The notes under the pieces: model-generated | What the model saw: only the letters and a program-made list of their open reading frames with translations | Told to the model about the DNA's origin: nothing | Databases searched by the model: none | Part shown: positions 17,201 to 59,879 of the stretch, in pieces | Layout of the letters: each line of letters begins with the position of its first letter | How positions within the stretch are numbered: position 1 is the stretch's first letter | Position numbers and translations under genes: made by a program | DNA from: Branchiostoma floridae | Lineage: Eukaryota > Chordata > Leptocardii > Amphioxiformes > Branchiostomatidae | Length of the DNA: 64,000 nt | NCBI RefSeq assembly: GCF_000003815.2 | Contig: NC_049984.1 | Span: 4,497,497 to 4,561,496, forward strand | Reading direction: 5' to 3'

Positions 17201-18976
17201 AGAATAGATTTCCTTTACCTATCGCTAGCGCTTATGGTAAATCCGTCAATTTCGGTGGAGCGAGCCTTCCATATCTGACCCCAGGTGATATTTAAGCTAT
17301 ATCTATTGCGAGATTTGTCACAGGAAAAGAAAGTCAGACAGGTACGTCTAGAAATGGTTTCATGGCAAGAACTCACATAAGTCCGATAATCGTTGTCTCA
17401 AGCTACTCTCCAAGCAGAGGTTCGGCTCCGGCTGTGTTTTTTTATGTGTATTCAGGCGTTTTTATCGGGCTTTTTCGTATTTTGTTACCGTTTTCTTCGG
17501 CGTTTGGCCGCGAGACCTATAAAGAAAACGGTACAAAATAGAAAGCCCGATAAAAACGTTTAAATACACATAAAAACAGCCAGAGCCGAAACTCTGCTTG
17601 GAGAGTAGTCTCTTGATCTCTTGATCTTCTTGATCTTGATTGAGTACTGGACAACGCCCCTCAGTTGGGGCAAAGCGTCCAGGGGGAGTGCTGCGCCTTA
17701 ATGTCCCCTGAGGCGTCGGAGAACTGCCTCCTTGAACTTTGGAGCGTCTGTGATCTCCGTGACCTCGTATGGTAGAGAGTTCCAATCTCTCACGGTTTGT
17801 GGGAAGAAGGAATGTTTGTAGCAGTCTTTGTGAAAAGGTAGAGCCTTGTAAGAATTTGGGTTTGAGTGTCGCGATTGGCGCGGTACAGGCTTTAGATGAG
17901 ATTCGACCGGTAGGGCTACTTTATGGTGTCTTGCTTTCTGTAAAATTGTTAATCTATTTGCTGTCCTTCTGTTGCGTAAAGTATCCCACCCCAAATCAGA
18001 GACAAGTTTGGTGACACTATCATAACTATGATACGAATTTGTGACAAATCTGGCCGCTCTTTTTTGAACGGACTCTAACTTAGCATCTTAGCAATGTGCT
18101 CTTTGTGGTATGGATCCCAGGCAGCGCTGGAATACTCTAAATGTGGTCTAACAAGGGATGTATATGCATTTGTTTTGACTGATTTGGGGCAGTTATAAAG
18201 ATTGCGTCTCACAAAGCCTAACGTCTTGTTAGCCTTGGAAGCACTGTACTGTATGTGTTGTGACCAAGAGAGCTGGTTGTTGAGCGTGACTCCTAAGTAT
18301 TTGTGGTTGTTAGTCTCGGCTAGAACATGACTTCCTAGTTTGTAGTCGTAGAGTTTAGGTTTACGTTTGTGGGTATAACGCATAACAAAACATTTGTCCG
18401 GGTGTAATTTCATCTGCCATGTGTTTTGCCATGTATCTAATGTATTGATGTCCTCTTGTAAGAGGGTGTGATCTCTGTCACTGTTTATCTCCCTGTAAAT
18501 GACGCAGTCATCCGCAAAGAGACGGATGTTAGAGTTGAGGTTGTCGGCTAAGTCATTAATGTACACTAAGAACAGTAGTGGTCCGAGCACGGTACCCTGG
18601 GGCACTCCAGAGACTACCTCTGCCCACTCTGAGTGCTCTCCCCCAACTACCACTCTTTGTTTACGATTTTTGAGGAAATTAGAGATCCAGTGAAGTACCT
18701 TACCCCTAATACCATAATTTTGGAGTTTTAGGAGTAAGCGTAGTCTCAAGTTTCAAATGCCCAAATCAACCATTAACAAGGAATTCATTGCTATTGTTAA
18801 ATCCCGTTTTTCGTGCAGTGGTAGGAGAATAATATAACGGGCAGCCAAAAGGATACGGCTTGCATTTTTCGTGCACTTATAACTCTTGTTTGTTTCTGCA
18901 GCGCAAGAAGAACGAGAACCAGCTGTGTTGGCTGCTGAGGAAAGTCCGTCGGGATGGTTCACACGAAGTCAAGTGA
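11259..18976 (+). CDS. Phosphoethanolamine N-methyltransferase with N-terminal leader
   Basis: Predicted SAM-dependent enzyme methylating phosphoethanolamine on the route to phosphocholine, like the N-terminal domain of plant PMT and nematode PMT-1. Six exons join in phase: 11259-11490, 14556-14742, 15140-15295, 15519-15655, 16182-16321 and 18902-18976, giving 308 residues. Family motifs seen: [17 protein letters not shown], motif [13 protein letters not shown] (about 132-143), [49 protein letters not shown], and a [14 protein letters not shown] end. It stops after one methyltransferase domain. Exon 1 adds about 77 residues that the family lacks, with a hydrophobic stretch near residues 8-24 that looks like a signal peptide or anchor. 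A shorter start exists at the ATG at 14,583 (residue 87). The catalytic part is firm; attachment of exon 1 rests on phase and splice sites only. Confidence 0.85.
11555..11580. repeat. (TG)n microsatellite
   Basis: A GT/TG run inside methyltransferase intron 1, shortly after the exon 1 donor. Confidence 0.9.
12232..12390. mobile_element. Foldback element, CAAGCAGAGG termini (copy 1)
   Basis: The left end 'ctcttcaagcagagg' and the right end 'cctctgcttggag' are inverted copies, with TA dinucleotides outside. It has no coding capacity. It belongs to the same family as the copies at 17,406, 43,872 and 46,910. It lies in methyltransferase intron 1. Confidence 0.6.
14340..14535 (+). repeat. SINE-like repeat abutting a splice acceptor
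   Basis: About 180 bp matches 59,880-60,090 in the same orientation, with shared blocks such as 'gattagccccctgcagtaga' here against 'gagtaaccccctgctgtagc' there, and 'gagatgagcgccaccctat'. The repeat ends about 20-30 bp before the acceptor of methyltransferase exon 2 (14,556), so its tail merges with the polypyrimidine tract. Confidence 0.65.
14762..14960 (+). repeat. tRNA-like head fused to foldback fragment
   Basis: A tRNA A-box-like TAGCTCAATTGGTAGC near 14,771 and a weak B-box-like AGTTCGAAAGG near 14,811 are followed by a fragment of the CCAAACCGGGG foldback family (14,829 on). It begins about 20 bp after the exon 2 donor. It is a degenerate composite and not a functional tRNA. Confidence 0.45.
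15735..16200 (+). repeat. Minisatellite copying the exon 5 splice acceptor
   Basis: About six degenerate units of 76-114 bp run through methyltransferase intron 4. The phrase 'ggttgtaacagggaataag' recurs with variation near 15,740, 15,854, 15,938, 16,025 and 16,101. The last copy, at 16,181, is the real acceptor and start of exon 5. At least two upstream copies (15,854 and 16,025) keep the AG of the acceptor followed by GGAAT. Confidence 0.8.
16620..16900. repeat. Dispersed G/C-rich foldback-like repeat, copy 1 of 2
   Basis: Blocks such as 'cacgggtaggt', 'accgggtcc', 'ccgtgccccaaa' and 'gtaggggtcac' are shared in the same order with 53,510-53,715. It lies in methyltransferase intron 5 and is non-coding. 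Confidence 0.7.
17406..17605. mobile_element. Foldback element, CTCTCCAAGCAG termini (copy 2)
   Basis: A nearly perfect 200-bp hairpin. Each arm is about 85-95 bp, the left starting 'ctctccaagcagag' and the right ending 'ctgcttggagag'. It is flanked by TA on both sides, fitting a two-base TA target duplication as made by Tc1/mariner-type elements. It has no coding capacity and lies in methyltransferase intron 5, just beyond the 3' end of the LINE fragment. Confidence 0.8.
17630..18752 (-). pseudogene. 5'-truncated non-LTR retrotransposon (CR1/Jockey-type LINE) fragment
   Basis: Antisense to the methyltransferase in intron 5. The minus-strand frame 18,749-18,075 covers the middle and end of a reverse transcriptase, with [20 protein letters not shown] and the catalytic FADD box. 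After a frameshift or stop near 18,075, a second frame (17,994-17,698) continues with the usual LINE C-terminal motif TVRDWNSLP. The element is cut at its 5' side near 18,752. It ends with a short GATCAAGA-type tandem tail near 17,610-17,640. It is a dead copy. Confidence 0.9.
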
Positions 18977-26200: not shown

Positions 26201-29200
26201 ATGACAAAAAAATTAAGGCCACTTTGCCATACTGACAGGCAAAATTGGCAAATCAACTGTTAAATATAAAGAATGATTATGGCAAATCATGTGGGGGGTG
26301 ATCATGAGTTGTTCAGGGCTTTTTCTAAAGTACCCCCATGCCCTGGCCAAGTGCCTTTCTCTGGGGAATGGATCTTCTAATGAGCATACAATTTCATTCT
26401 GATTGACAAGGGATACTACATCATCGTACATGGCCACCTCTTTGACAGGGATTTTTCCCTTTGGACAGTCTTGGAATACCACATTATAACTTAACATTCT
26501 CTCAAACTTCCCTTCCACACCATCCCAATGCTCCCCCTTGCAATTTTTTTCTAGAAAACCCCCTGGTCGTTGATGACAAGACAACAATATCCTGGTTTGT
26601 TTTTTATCACCAGTAGCTTGCAGCTCATAACAATCTTCATCAATAAACACAGCAATTTGATGATAATGTACATGTATTGGCAGATGTAATATCAATCTGT
26701 TTCAATTGTTTGTAATCTTATGTTTTCACACTCCAGGAACTGAGGTAAGGAATACTGTACATTAAAAAAAGGAGTAATTGTTACCTGTGGTCTAAACATT
26801 GGCTTGCCTCTGCAGCTGGGTAGGAGCTTTATGTGAGTGTATCCCTCTTCACTCCTCAAGGCAATGTGTTTGTACTTGGACCCCGGTCTCTTGACTTTCC
26901 TAGGCAGGGGCCGTCTCGTCGAGACCTCACTGTCATCGCTGTCGCTTTCACTTGCTTTCGTCCGGTCCTCCTCAAGGGTTTTGGGGCCAGATTTCCTGGG
27001 AGATCTCCTCTTTACAACTCTACCGACTTCGACAACACTGGCCGATGAGTGGCTCTCTGTGTCATCAGATTCTGGAAGAAATATCAGGACACAGATGTTT
27101 GACTGAATTCCAAAATGAATTACTGAGTTTATTTATTCCTTTATTGGTTTGGCTTTTCAGCACGCACAGCCAGGGCTGCCCAACTAGCCTGTGGCTATTA
27201 CAAAGGGCTAGCCCTGCTGGCAGAGACAAAGACAATACAGATAGAATTTGACATGGATCTGATAATAAGCAATAACAATATTCTAAGTCAACTGAGTTGT
27301 CCAAAAAATGACAGCCATACTGCAGTGTTGAAATCAATTTCAAGACTAACATTATCAAATAGAGTAAAACATATATACAACAGACCAGCTAAACAGTTTT
27401 TGTTGGGTCACAGACCACTTTTTGTTGGGTCCCAATGACACAAACATGGAGAATCGTGTCAAAAGTAACCACCTGTCCACAAAGACCAAAGTGGTATTCT
27501 TGGGCAGTTTGCCTGTATTAACAAACTTGACAATTGACACCAAATTTAGCATCATAACACAAACAGTTCATGATGAAGATATTGATTCCAGTACCTGTGT
27601 CTCCATTGACATTGACCTCAACAGACTCTGACGCCCGACTTCTCGTCCGTCTGGAGATCGGTGCCTCGCTTTTCTGAGAAATCTCTTCTGCCGACAAAGG
27701 GTTTATCGTGACGACTGGCGACAGCTGCTGGGTTGTCATTTGTTTGACACTATCAGGGCACGTCACAGATAAACTCTCAGACATGGGGAGCTCTGACAGC
27801 TTGCTGTGGGATAAGGGGAAATTGTCAGCAGGCAGCATCCTCAGTGGGCTTCCTGGTTGGTATGGCATTCTTCTGGTCGGGCTGGTAGGATCACTTGGAG
27901 ATTTCTGCGCTGAGAACGAGAGACTTCTCTGTCGATGTGGAGAGGTTGGACCCATCAGCAAGCTTGGTCTCCTACTAGGGGGGGTTGGAAGTACTTTGGG
28001 GACGACGTGTTCATTTTCAGCTCCAACAGAGAAAGAGCTGCTGCCTTCACTGGCATCGCTGATAGAAGTGGTTGTGCTGGAGACCTCAATATCCTTCTCC
28101 TGGCCAGAAGGTGCTTCCCTGTGTCTCCTTTTGGCTCTTCTTGCTGGAGAAGGTGACTTGCGCTTTCTCTTAGGTGATGCAGTTCTGGCCGAAGGTATGT
28201 GGGCTTCCTGTGCGTGTGTTTCCTCTTTGCTCATGGACGTTGACCTCTGCCGTTTGGGCGACACAGACCGACGGGGAGACTGCGACTTTTGTTGCCTTGC
28301 GGCAGGAGACCTTCTAGGTGAGACGGGTTGACTGCCTGGCTCCTGCTTGATCTCAGTGATCCTCGGAGGGGACGCACCACGCTCCAGCGACCGTGTGGTA
28401 GTGGGCCCGTTGGGGCCGGAACCGTTGGGAACTGCATTGCCTGGCAGCATCTCACTAAGAATTCTACTCCTGGATCGGGACGGCTGATTGGGGTTGGAGG
28501 AGGTGACGCGTTCAATGATCTTGTTCTCGATCTGCTGCTGCTTCTTCAGCAGGAATCTCCGTCTGTTCTCGTAGAAGGCGTGTATCATGTCGACACACCC
28601 CTCCAGGTTTGATATGGGCTCCCAGGAGTCCTCCTCGCTGCCGTAACCCTTCCATCTCACCAGGAACTCCACTCGACCCTTCATCTCCCTGCGAGCCTGC
28701 AGTTTCTCAACCTGAAATAAAATGAGACAAAAACATCACTCAACTTTATCTGGGAAATCTTTTTATACAGGAACTTGAAGAGATAAAGTGTAAGTAAATG
28801 AAACCTTAGTCTGGTCTCTGAGTTGACATCTTGAAAAGATGACTGTCATCTGTTGTCTCAATTCTTCCAGAAACATGTGATAAATCTTAGGCCACACCAA
28901 TTTAATTTCTTGGTTCACGGATTCGCTCGCTCCAATTTTGTGGGAAAAAAAATAAAAATAAAAATTACCACTCAGCAAATTTTCACCATTGATGAAACCA
29001 TTCACCAACTTTCTGGTGTAGCAAATTGCCCTTTATATTTTAAGCTCCTTAAAATGTGGGTATTATTATTGCAGTTATATTTTTCATTCATGAAGAATGG
29101 GACTAACATAAAAACTGACACTACTTTTGTAATTTTCAATGAACAGGTGCTATTACTGTACAGTAATAGTGTTTTTGTACCTTTTTCAAGCTGAAAACTT

Positions 29201-40700: not shown

Positions 40701-43700
40701 GTATGTGTGTTTGTCCCCTCAAGGACCCCTACCTTAGTACCTAGTCAAGGGACTAGATAGGTGGGTTTGGGCCTTCTAGTCGTTATCCTTGTTACTGCAG
40801 CAGAAATTTTTGTATCACGTCCCTTTGCATGCTATGGTCTTGTTCTGATTGATTTTTGTCTTCCAAACGATGACCATTGAAACTGTCATATCAAAAGTAG
40901 ATTATGTTGTTTTCCTGCAGATGTACAATGAAATTGTCCAGGCATTGGACGATGCTAGCAAGGATGACTCTGTCACTGTTGCTGTTATAACAGGTATATC
41001 TATGATTGCTTGGATATGTGTAGTACTCACAACATTGTCCAGAACTACCATTAGAAAATCAATATTATTGAGAGTACATGTACTATTGTATTCTAACTCT
41101 TTTTGAAACAACAGAAGTTGCTTTGACATATGTAAAGATAAAATAAAAACGTCTGTTCCAGAAAAATCTAGTAGGGGTAGCAGTAGGCAATAGATCCACC
41201 AAAACAATCAATTGTTTAATGTCAGAAAACTTACAAGAACTGCCTTTTCTTTAAAAATCTAAAGTGCGCTTCTTTCATCTCATGCATTAAATTTTCATAA
41301 AACAGCTTTAAACTTGTTTTTAAATCTTTGTGAAGGTGCTGGTGATTACTACTGTAGTGGGAACGATCTCGGAAACTTCATGAACATCGATCCCAAGGAC
41401 ATGCCTAAGATGGCTCGGGATGGCAAGGAACTGCTCAGGTCAGTCTAGTTTTAGCAAAACAATGTGCTTCTCAATAAAGTTACAAATTATGTGACTTGCA
41501 ACACAAGAAAGTTGACTTACTACAATTTTCAACTTATCAGCTCCAGTCTTTTTCAAGGAATGGACAATCCATTGCTTATGTGACGTCGAAAATTTCAGTG
41601 TTGGAACCTCAAGTTTAAATTCATCCAGAAGGACTTCTACTAATACAGATGAACTTTCAAGTCACCTAAGTAGGCGTATTAACTGTGGCGCTTTATTTTG
41701 CTCAAAATGTCAAAAGCCATGTTTTATGTACATTATATTTGGAGCCTGAAGAGTACCGGTACTTAGGAAATGTGTTTTGTGTCCACCAGGCGATTTGTCA
41801 CTGCCTTTATCGACTTCCCCAAGCCCCTGATTGGTGCTGTGAATGGTCCTGCAGTGGGCGTGTCGGTCACCGTCTTGGGTCTGTTTGATGCCGTGTATGC
41901 TACTGACAAGGTAAGAACACTTTCTTGCAGGTAACAATAGCCTCTACCAGGCTCTGTGGATTGGTGGTCTAATTGTAGAATTGGACAAATAGAATCAATA
42001 GTACGCTAGGGGAGTCAGCCGGCCAGAAGAATCTGTATCCTCACAGATATATAGATTGTTCTGGCTGGCTGACTCCCCTAGCGTACTATTCTTCTTCCCG
42101 TTGATGCCCACAATCTTGAAGAAGATTATACTGGCATGTTTGGGGAGTGGTGACGCTCGCACTTGTCGACGTAATCCAATACTCGTTAGTCCATTAACAG
42201 TCCATGGTCGATACCCCTGAATCCGTCAGTTGTCTAGGTAGGCTGTTATGAAACAGAGGCCCGAGACACAAATGACTATTGACTCTATGTGTCCAATTTC
42301 TACTATTAGACCACTCCACGGAGCCTGGTAGAGGCTAGGTAACAAAACTAACATGTGAGAATGTGGTTCCTAAGAGTTGTTGGTTATCCTATCCTGTTCA
42401 TATGACACAATATCTTGTTTGCATTGAGTAAACTGGTCTCTTATTTTTGAAGATGCAAATATATGATAATAAGCACAATAATTCCTCTTGAATTTGTGAC
42501 TGTTTGCTACCTGAATATTCATTATGAACACAAAGTTACAGAATGCAAATTATGACTTAGCAATATTTCCAAATCATTATTACAATGATTTTTGTTTTAA
42601 TGTGTTGTAGGCTACATTCCATACCCCATTCACCGAGCTCGGACAGAGTGCAGAGGGCTGCTCTTCATATGTATTCCCCAAGCTCATGGGTAATACCAAG
42701 GTCAGTACAGATTAATGTCTTTTGTGGATATTTTGTAAGCTTATAATTTTGCTACAACACAACACTTGTAAGCTGTGTTGCAGCAAGTGTGCTTTGATGC
42801 ATTTGACTACCCACGGACAGGGTTTTTAGTAAAGTTTTTACATGACATATTTTGTATTATATGTCATCTTCCAAAGACAGCTTGATATGAAACTGAATTT
42901 TATATGGTTTTATGTATCCATACTAATTGTATAGTATACATTGTGCCTTATGCCAAGGACATTTCATTTGCAAATTCTTGAACACCTATCACCAAGATTT
43001 AACCATTGGTATCATTTGCAGCATTGTTACTCCCTATTGAGGTGTTCATGAGAGACAACTACACTGCAGAGAAAACTGAACAATGTTTTCCAAAAGCCAG
43101 CCACATCATAATTTTTGATAGAGCTGTTGTAAAAAATTGCTCAATCTTATGGAAAACGCAGCATATTTTGATAGAGTTGTCCGTAACATTTTGTCAACCT
43201 TCTGTTTTCCCCTATTGTCCATCTGCAAATGTAGTAGCACAAAGTTACAAAGACGAATTCAAAATTAAAAGTCAGTGTCATTTCCTCCCTCAGGCTAATG
43301 AGATGCTGCTCTTCAACAAGAAGCTGACTGCACACGAGGCATGTGAGAGAGGCCTGGTGACCGAGGTCCTTCCTCATGACAGCTTCCAGAAGGAGGTGCA
43401 AACTAGGGTGGAGTATGTCGCCCAGCTTCCACCACAGGTTCGTAGTGCATTTATTTTATCCGGAGGTGATTTTCTGTAATTCTCTTTCCAAACATGGGAA
43501 GACGTTGATACAGAGTGTACAAATTGGTAATTGGTATGTCAAGTTTCTGTCAGTGAGACTGTTTTTTTCCCAAACTCATCAAGCTTGTGAAAGTTAGACA
43601 ACACTTATGACAGCTACAAACTGTTTAGTTTGTAAAGTGACTAAAATCATTTTAGTACAGGTAATTCCATGTGACAGGGTATACAATTGACTTGTATTTT

Positions 43701-55585: not shown

Positions 55586-57307
55586 CACAGAACTTGTGCC
55601 TCTTTTTATGAACTTTTCTCTCTATGGGAAGAATGGGTGATCTTCTGTGTATCATTGATCATCATGTCAGCATATATATGACTTTTGCTGAAATTTAATA
55701 CCAGAATGGTATAGGATTGGATATATGTATTTTTAATTTCTGATTCTCAGTGAGTCTATGGGACCAACTGTTAGAATTTGTGACTAAAGTGTGTATGCAA
55801 GAATGGAGTGGTATTGTATACTATATAGAGTTTGAGTTAACTGTATACTGTATACTAAGGAGATAGTATTTACCAATTATGTATGTACCAAAAGAAAATC
55901 TATGTACAGGGTCCCACCCTTCTTTTTGAAAATTGTAGCACAGATTTCCAAAGAATTTATTGTAATGAGACAAAAGAGGCCCTGTTAATACAGCTTGAAA
56001 TGTAAGCTTGATATTGATAAGCTTTGTATGGCTGCCCCTTGTTGCCATTTTGTTTTGTACTTTTTCATTAGAAAGATTGGTAGTAAGTTATACAGTATAC
56101 TGGTATACTAAGACTAAGTTCTAGATTACAAATATGTAGTACACTATGAGTTCACAAGTATAGTGAACCAATTTGGCACCAAACTATGAGTCATTCTCAC
56201 AGCCTCATCAATTTACTGGGAGATTACATTCACTCTCAATAAATACAAGTCAAGCCTTTTGTACTGTCTTTATTTCAGCATGTAGAATATTTTTTTATAA
56301 TCATCAAATGATTTGTAGTAGCCAATACCCAGTTTGAAAAAATGGTGAGTCACTGAGCCAGTGTGTGTGTGTGTGAGAGTGAGTGAAAGAAAGCATTATG
56401 CCTCACCTAAATAGAGGTTGACTGTAATTTTACTTCAACTAGGGCTGGGTACCGGTACAAAACCGGTTTTTCTCTTTGGACCGGTCCAGAAAAACCGGAC
56501 CTGAAAAAATTCGGTGGACCGGATGTTGGACCGATTGGAAAATGAACTGATTATATGATCAGGCATTCACACGTTTTGGGGGTTATCGGTCTAGGCAAAT
56601 GACAAGAGCGAAGCAGAGTAAACTCTTAAGTCATTTTTACTAACTTTTACAGTCATTCGTACAGAGGTAGTTTATAGCCTTGTAGGATTTTGTAAACACC
56701 AGTGGGAGTTGAATACTACACAAAACAGATTTCTTTGTAGCAAAATGGACCATTGTTTTGATTACATACCAGTTCCATTCACAAGTTTTTACATAGTGAA
56801 TCAGGTCCAGACCTGGACCTGATCCTCTGAACCGGACCTGGACCTGAATTTTCTGTACCGGTACCCACCCCTAACCTCAACTATTATCAATTAAACATCT
56901 AGCGACTAGTCCCGAGGATTCTACGATATCTTCCCGCTGCAGTTAAAATTTACTTCACTATGAGGTGCTTGTGATCACATTTTTTTATTTACTTCACCCC
57001 CTGAGCTGCCCGCTCAGCGTGAATGGTTTGCTCCACCAGCTGGTGCCCCGAGGTGCATGCTGGGTGCAGCAGACGGTAATTTACGACCCGGTGACCCCGG
57101 CCGACAACACGGGGAAGTCGTGCGGGGAGAGAGAGTCCCGCTGCCCGTGCACTTCAGGAGGCTCCCCTGCCGCGATAAACCTTCGCCGAGCTCACAAACA
57201 TTTCCGGCAGCGTTTCGTGTGGTGGTGGTTTACTGGGATGTGTGAACGTGTCCGCGGAATGCGGTTGTCAGTGATTTGGTGAAGCGAGGGGGATCGCTGC
57301 TGTCAAC
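55586..57307. other. GINS2 3' UTR and intergenic region
   Basis: The left part is probably the GINS2 3' UTR, up to the AATAAA at 56,238. A hAT-type MITE fills 56,440-56,873. From about 57,000 the sequence turns CpG-rich and is the likely promoter and 5' UTR of the next gene. Confidence 0.6.
56440..56873. mobile_element. hAT-type MITE, TAGGGSTGGGTACCGGTAC termini
   Basis: 434 bp. The 19-bp ends are inverted with one mismatch (TAGGGCTGGGTACCGGTAC on the left). The 8-bp flanks are ACTTCAAC on the left and ACCTCAAC on the right, a target duplication with one difference. Inside, blocks with 'ggaccggtcc' and 'ggtccagacctggacctga' are rich in self-pairing. Non-coding. Confidence 0.85.
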
Positions 57308-59416
57308 ATGATGATGGCGGGTGCAGCGCCGCGCACAGCTGGCGGGGCCACGGCCACATCTGGCCCGGCGGCGGCGCCCGACCAACATGGCTCCGTCTGC
57401 TTCGTGTGTGGCAGCGGCGGCGCCAGCTACGAGCTCCGATCCCGCCCGGGGGCTGACAGCGCCGTGCCGTACTTCCCCTTCCTGGAGTATCACGAGGCCC
57501 CTCCCGGGGGCCGATCCCTGGCCACCGACGGCTCGGCCGACGTCTGTTTCGTCTGCTACTCCTTCCTGTCCGAGCAGTGGAATTCCTTCGAGCGGATGCG
57601 AACGCCACTCGCCAAACGGCTCTACTGGCTGAAGAGGCCCCCAGGGTGCGGGTACAGGAGCGGTCACGACGTCTGTCACGACGCTCAACTTCGGTTTCAG
57701 CAGGAGGAACTTCTGAAACTCAGCGGTCAGGACGCTGGCGATGTGGGCGGGGACGCGTACGACTGGCCCGGGTATGCCGCCGCCGCCGGCGACGACGCCA
57801 GGAGCAGAGATACCACAGTTACAAACGAAAGGACGTCAACTCTGAGATTATGTTACGTCTGCGGCGCTAAGAAAGACAGGAGACACCTCCTCAGCGCTCA
57901 CACGCGCCCCCAGCATAACCCGAAGTCACCGTTCTACCCGTGTCTCAGCCGACATGCCCCGCCCCCCGGGGCACCCCCAGCGGACCAGGACGGCACGGTC
58001 ATGATTTGCGAGGGCTGCGAGAAGTTCTTGTTCAGGCAGTGGCAGGCCTTCCAGAGGAACAACATTCCAGTCATGGAGAGACAGTACCAGCTGCTCTCCG
58101 AGGTGGACGCGGTGTCCCACAAGGCAAGGTCTTCGGACCGCCACAGCACCACAAACACACAGCAGGACAGGAACCCTGGAGGAGAAGAGGAAGATGGCAT
58201 GATGAGATGTTACACCTGCGGAGTGACGCAGCCATTCAGCTCAGGCAGGTTTGTCTACTCCAGGAAACACTCTGAAGGTGGCGCATACTTTCCCTTCCTG
58301 GAAGAGTTCACCCCACCCAAAGGTGCGATGTCGCTGACGGCACATGGCGTGACCAGGGTGTGTCACGCCTGCCGTAAATCCTTGGACAGGCAGTGGAAAT
58401 CCTTTGAAGCGTCGTCAACACCCGAGGGGCAACGTGTGTACAGGATACACAAGGAGGGTGCACAAAAGCCGCCGCCTTCCCCATCACGATCTCAATTGCA
58501 GCCAAAATCGACTGCTTCGAAACCTCAGGGTTGTTACCTGTGTGGTAGCATTCTTCCACTCTCAGGTGGTAACGTTGTCAACTCCAAACCGCCATCAGAT
58601 GAGGACGAGGATGATCGAAATGAGAGGTACTTTCCCTTCCTTGTTGATTACCCCCAGGCAAGTAATGCCCACCCCCTGAGACAGGATGGTACAGCCCAGG
58701 TGTGTGACACCTGTCAATCATGGCTGGACCAACAGTGGCACATCTTACAAATCAGAGGCGTCCCACCTAGCCAGATAGGTGGTTTTATAAGTAACTTTAT
58801 GGTGCTGCCAAGTACGTCAAGATTGAGGGAAGAAATTGACGATACCCCTAAAAGGTCATCACCTGCATCAAATGATAGCAAAGAGGGAACACTAGAAGAG
58901 GTGAGGAAAAACTGCTTTATTTGTGGCAAAAGTGTAAGCAAAAGGGGTAAACAAACATTGTACACTTACCCAAGGACGAGGGACGGAGGGTCAGACAGAG
59001 GCCCTTTCTTCCCCTTCCTGGCCACCTGTAACCCGGCACCTGGAGCTGAGCCGGTCCGCTCCAACGGCTCCGTGACCGCCTGCAAGTTCTGCCACTACAA
59101 CCTGCTGCAACAGTGGAACGATTACGAGAACTCCCCCGAGAGTGCCGGCGAGTCCAACCGGTGGCTGCGGCCGTACCACACGCGAGATTTCGTGTGCTAC
59201 CGGTGCGGGGAACTCCATCCCTTCGCGGTGGCGAAAAAAGTTTTAGTGAAATATTCTCCCTTTCTCACCGACCACCCCAGACCGAAGGGGTCCCTAGCGC
59301 TGGAGGGAGGCAGCAGTGTACTGGTGTGCCCAGGATGTCATGAACTCATGAAAAGTGCTGAAAAGACTGACTTTACACCTTCAGTTATTAGGGGACCAAC
59401 CATCGACGAACACAAG
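57308..59416 (+). CDS. First coding exon of a six-module CxxC protein, possible GSE1 counterpart (partial)
   Basis: A 703-codon exon ending at a donor (CACAAG then GTGGGT) in phase 0; the gene runs past the right edge. It contains six repeats of one module: CxxC, about 45 residues, CxxC. Cys pairs are at 31/34 and 80/83, 182/185 and 234/237, 301/304 and 352/355, 409/412 and 466/469, 536/539 and 592/595, 630/633 and 674/677. Between the pairs a YFPFL-type motif and a DG motif recur; a QW motif follows the second pair in modules 1-5, with a trailing FE in some. Four cysteines per module suggest one zinc each. Linkers are Ser/Pro- and acid-rich. I cannot name the family with certainty. The neighbour GINS2 is next to GSE1 in human, so a GSE1 relationship is inferred from position only. 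It lies in a CpG-rich stretch. Confidence 0.8.
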
Positions 59417-59879
59417 GTGGGTGAAGATTTCCTTAGGACCAACCATTGTCTTCCTTTCTTCTGTCAAAACCATTTCCAATGTCATACTTTTTTTTTAAGT
59501 CTTCAAAACATTGCAATGACAATATTTTTGTATAGTTCACACCTTGAAGATTTAAGCAAGGAGGTTATATTTAAGTTATGAGGGGCTAGCCATTGTTGAA
59601 TGCAAGATGGGTTGAGATTTCTTTCGGGGACAAACCATTGTCTATTTGTCTGATAGAGCCATTTGGATAATAATACCATCAATAGCAATACATTGAGTTT
59701 ATGGGACAAAGATTGCAATAGGTCTATGTTCTGTTCTATTTGGTGTCATTGGAAACATGGCCTTTACACCAGTGAGTAGAGTGCTGAGAGTGTTTGCCTT
59801 GCATTGCTAGGTCATGAGTTCAAGACTTTTCTCTTCTTTAATAGCACATTTGGAAAGAGTATGGTAGTTGCTCATAGCC

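Follow-up and report, generated by a model that had tools for sequence, protein, structure and literature searches.

The window considered here is a stretch of 64,000 nucleotides from Branchiostoma floridae (NC_049984.1, positions 4,497,497 to 4,561,496 of the forward strand); positions are counted from its first letter, and those beyond 64,000 continue on the same scale. At 57308-59416 on the plus strand lies a candidate first coding exon of 2,109 nt, or 703 codons, which encodes six tandem four-cysteine modules and, most likely, judging from the DNA, forms the N-terminal part of a long GSE1. The exon starts with the ATG at 57308 (context TCAACATGATG), 36 bases 3' of an in-frame stop at 57272-57274, and its frame stays open up to a splice donor, where AAG is followed by GTGGGT (59417-59422) across 59416/59417. 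This donor scores 6.0 bits with the splice matrix and leaves the exon in phase 0 at its 3' end; beyond it the GC content drops from 0.48 to 0.37. A promoter-like CpG island (56800-58200; GC at least 0.55, observed/expected CpG ratio at least 0.75) covers the exon start. It was the only one found within 56.0-100.0 kb, scanned in 500-base windows at steps of 100 bases with windows containing N skipped. Past the donor the array frame runs on for 54 more codons to a stop at 59579-59581 (59417-59581), and retention of the intron at 59417 would yield a 757-residue protein with the array alone.

The 12 CxxC pairs of the exon resolve into six CxxC-x(40-53)-CxxC modules, all on the plus strand and delimited by alignment and profiles. 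Module 1 (57380-57661; CxxC-x45-CxxC) carries YFPFL, DG and QW motifs, module 2 (57836-58111; x48) FYPCL, DG and QW, module 3 (58193-58453; x47) YFPFL, HG and QW, module 4 (58517-58786; x53) YFPFL, DG and QW, and module 5 (58898-59164; x52) FFPFL, NG and QW. Module 6 (59180-59374; x40), which retains SPFL, is shortened relative to the others and lacks QW. In the alignment, both CxxC pairs and a glycine after the first pair are invariant in all six modules, as are the proline and leucine of the YFPFL-like block, and QW follows the second pair in five of six. A reading made earlier from the sequence only had described six such modules in one exon, a common YFPFL-like block, QW in modules 1-5 and a shortened sixth module without it, all of which is borne out. 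Its claim of a conserved DG went too far: a literal DG occurs only in modules 1, 2 and 4, three of the six, whereas HG stands in module 3 and NG in module 5, and module 6 has neither at that column.

The six modules are homologous, their sequence similarity being beyond chance. Profiles built from five modules recognized the sixth at 26.3-80.9 bits, above every shuffle (1,000 free and 1,000 cysteine-fixed per module), the highest shuffle score for any module being 15.3 bits (module 4). The weakest case was module 6, with 26.3 bits against 11.3 for its own best shuffle. All 15 module pairs also matched each other in blastp (E 4e-17 to 5e-3), E-values that refer to the six-sequence set only, with composition correction off. 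In the 513 Mb genome, tblastn with module 1 recovered the query as well as modules 2-5 (E 8.6e-10 to 3.2e-4), and neither module 6 nor other loci were found up to E 10 with five candidates scored. The whole exon showed no copy except itself (E <= 0.001, three candidates scored). These two queries define the genome search, which modules split by introns would escape. Among prokaryote genomes, 35 pattern matches were obtained, with no relative among them.

Further downstream, 60 kb beyond the window were read (L002-L007), apart from the 1,462 N that immediately follow it. On the same strand, 36-54 kb downstream of the array (94.9-113.5 kb), lie exons of GSE1, extending from 94962 to a stop at 113491 (L005, L006) and recognized by the domain DUF3736 (PF12540). 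DUF3736 was matched on one exon alone with E=1e-15 (58.5 bits). When the exons were joined by hand, it was present in full in a 952-residue stretch (positions 3-141 of 142; E=5.6e-39, 133.8 bits against a cut-off of 22.6). The gene model matched six of six stretches of human GSE1, which follow the same order in it (E 1e-30 to 3e-6), the queries not being database sequences and GSE1 motifs of the same origin having also helped to place exon 3 of that model; all six matched the unjoined DNA as well, with best-piece E-values of 9e-10 to 7e-5. The reference form of human GSE1 starts at the counterpart of exon 3 and is not known to carry the array. Four copies of the peptide SRLHDMSSSPTPGQLSN (101480, 101633, 101799 and 101952) lie at 101480-102000 (about 7580-8100 of L005), at GSE1 exon 9 and immediately ahead of it, a pattern resembling a tandem duplication of the 5' part of that exon.

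Between the array and these exons, a putative bridging exon at 82304-82466 on the plus strand (8404-8566 of L003) would form exon 2, on the basis of exon score and phase match. The scores of candidate exons combined codon log-odds with generic splice matrices, under which 195 donor and 275 acceptor sites exceeded the threshold. The bridging exon obtained the top score between the array and GSE1 (26.4 bits; next separate place 11.7), and its phases, 0 in and 1 out, are those needed by the array donor and the GSE1 exon 94962-95150. In a run with controls its score was 26.3 bits, and the reverse complement gave 12.4. A set of 60 shuffles, first-order Markov sequences generated by 2 kb block with dinucleotides kept only roughly, reached at most 20.0 bits in any phase and 15.7 in its phase pair. 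It encodes EPVIVIDGSDSETES followed by acidic serines, a stretch that we take to resemble a SUMO-interaction motif.

Chaining from the array initially gave 23 exons after it. In the hand-corrected chain, 94962-95150 was added, 104594-104606 became 104555-104606, 110050-110220 was lengthened to 110262, and short exons at 67047, 68565, 70369, 77662, 100253, 101287, 101478 and 101631 were dropped. The resulting 17-exon model is open from the array ATG to the stop at 113491 and encodes 1,923 residues, and each of its 16 introns begins with GT and ends with AG; without the small exon, the frame is broken after 104120, with 10 stops. The exon score is not fully independent, its training set having included some of the GSE1 exons as well as that of the array. 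What weighs against joining the array to GSE1 in this way is that the chaining run started from the array, and that eight short exons had to be removed and one missed exon added.

No named domain was recognized in the modules. The exon, read as 757 residues, yielded six Pfam families up to E 10, none of which reached its cut-off. The six modules scanned singly gave only weak matches, the best at E 0.0026 for one module in Pfam and at E 0.026 in NCBIfam. Several candidates were considered and rejected: the YjdM zinc ribbon PF08274, which covers 11 residues of module 2 (E 2.5e-5, 24.6 bits, below the cut-off of 30.8); zf-Tbcl_FmdE (the single-module match at E 0.0026); zf-C2HC_3, likewise a weak single-module match (E 0.0033); and RNA_pol_N, which matches two modules with a best E of 0.18. 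The module profile found no full-length relative among PDB sequences, the 12 sequences up to E 10 being all partial; the best of them, heterodisulfide reductase (E 0.0055), was likewise set aside. The modules therefore constitute a family without description in the libraries searched (Pfam, NCBIfam and PDB sequences), in agreement with the earlier statement that the domain has no name.

Structure prediction, which had been proposed as a check, suggested a fold resembling the treble clef. The AlphaFold2 model of module 1 is confident (predicted local distance difference test score 85.8, predicted template modelling score 0.76), from six alignment rows only, and places the second CxxC (56-59) between a strand (52-55) and a helix (57-72). 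A second, weaker model again gave strand, helix, strand and long helix for module 5. This second model, a single chain of modules 5 and 6 and the only tandem pair modelled, reached a predicted template modelling score of 0.49, with no packing given. Of the Foldseek matches, 20 in PDB and 38 in viral models, none reached E <= 0.001; a second fold comparison with PDB took in 51 and 376 chains, all proposed by Foldseek. In the zinc regions of FYVE, HNH and thymidine kinase, the arrangement of zinc site and helix overlaps parts of the module models, and their weak fold scores, at least as high as those of ZAD, are read as shared geometry only. One zinc per module, held by the four cysteines, would be consistent with the treble-clef-like prediction.

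The closest known layout is that of ZAD (zf-AD, PF07776), reviewed as a domain of 71-97 residues in which some 50 residues separate the two cysteine pairs and a long helix comes after the last strand (PMC5509000). ZAD stands at the N-terminus of C2H2 proteins, chiefly those of arthropods. The modules resemble ZAD in size, in the spacing of about 50 residues between their two CxxC pairs (x40 to x53, module 6 fitting least), in one expected zinc, and in a predicted strand and long helix at the second pair; ZAD structures appear among the weak fold matches but not above other zinc folds. They differ in standing six in tandem before GSE1 and in carrying the YFPFL and QW motifs. No profile relation emerged, since hhalign against three solved ZADs gave a probability of 0.3 %, and zf-AD was not listed in the Pfam scans of the exon or the single modules. 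C2H2 families were absent among matches to the 757-residue reading and, at E <= 0.1, to the next 952 residues of the model; of the last approximately 270 residues, two single-exon readings were scanned and gave no match. The sequence-only reading had held that no standard zinc finger has this layout, which was too strong given the similar layout of ZAD. Four-cysteine zinc modules and a ZAD-like layout are already known, and what is new in the searches made is the six-fold array before GSE1. On another reading, unlikely given the profile comparison, the modules are true, very divergent ZADs arranged in tandem, through which the protein would associate with itself in antiparallel pairs; this would account for the layout and the strand and helix at the second pair.

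In human cells, GSE1 is reported to be a subunit of the HDAC1/CoREST co-repressor complex, and the DNA damage response to be impaired when GSE1 is lost (PMC10681733); in leukaemia cells, LSD1 inhibitors reduce GSE1 protein (PMC8830420). As a probable 5' coding exon of GSE1, the array exon would acquire a chromatin context, and from the complex membership and the effect of the inhibitors we infer that long GSE1 may dock partners by avidity. The best overall explanation, to which we assign a probability of roughly 0.55, is that the exon is the N-terminal exon of a long GSE1 whose zinc modules dock or cluster CoREST in this way. The protein would carry six treble-clef-like modules and a SUMO-interaction-like stretch ahead of the conserved GSE1 body. 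The four cysteines of each module would hold one zinc, and the aromatic-proline block and QW helix may form a docking or self-pairing surface, by analogy with ZAD domains. The conserved body would join the co-repressor while the modules dock partners or each other, so that the six act by avidity and the CoREST complex is held or clustered at chromatin on their partners; exon 2 might add a SUMO contact. The multivalent binding platform suggested in the sequence-only reading is plausible. Pfam names only DUF3736, of unknown function, in the GSE1 model, and a countable docking array would offer a target for mutation, as to which modules engage which partners and whether the genes reached by a long form differ from those of a short one. 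The titles and opening abstract lines of the best-ranked papers in the open literature did not mention a zinc array on GSE1, and no paper linking GSE1 with amphioxus was found there.

More tentatively, the array may be ancestral in animal GSE1, as a zinc-module family with its own CpG-island promoter that serves multivalent CoREST/HDAC/LSD1 docking, shorter forms without it starting downstream. If so, GSE1 as known so far, lacking the array, would represent just a portion of the protein.

Direct binding of the modules to nucleic acid or modified histone tails, rather than to partner proteins, is improbable as well. HNH nucleases, Cas-HNH and ribosomal proteins do occur among the fold matches, and GSE1 acts in a chromatin complex (PMC10681733), but those matches are weak and tied and the six modules share no invariant basic residue. 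Least likely, and quite improbable, is that the array exon forms a gene of its own, for instance encoding the 757-residue protein to the stop at 59579-59581, with GSE1 starting elsewhere: the 54 open codons past the donor and an in-frame ATG just 5' of exon 2 would suit it, but the donor at 59417 is good, its phase matches the best-scoring exon on the strand, the GC content falls past it, and no second CpG island was found in 56-100 kb.

Some other features lie near the array. A chromodomain exon is present at 27521-28735 on the minus strand (PF00385, E=4.8e-14), and an enoyl-CoA-hydratase-like stretch at 43003-43476 on the plus strand (PF00378, E=5.1e-6, just under the cut-off). The pair is reminiscent of CDYL proteins; the two are, however, on opposite strands. 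A reverse-transcriptase stretch at 18078-18752 on the minus strand (PF00078, E=9.3e-18) is probably a retroelement remnant. Beyond the window, a 365-codon open frame at 120010-121104 on the minus strand reads, as judged by eye, like a rhodopsin-type receptor.
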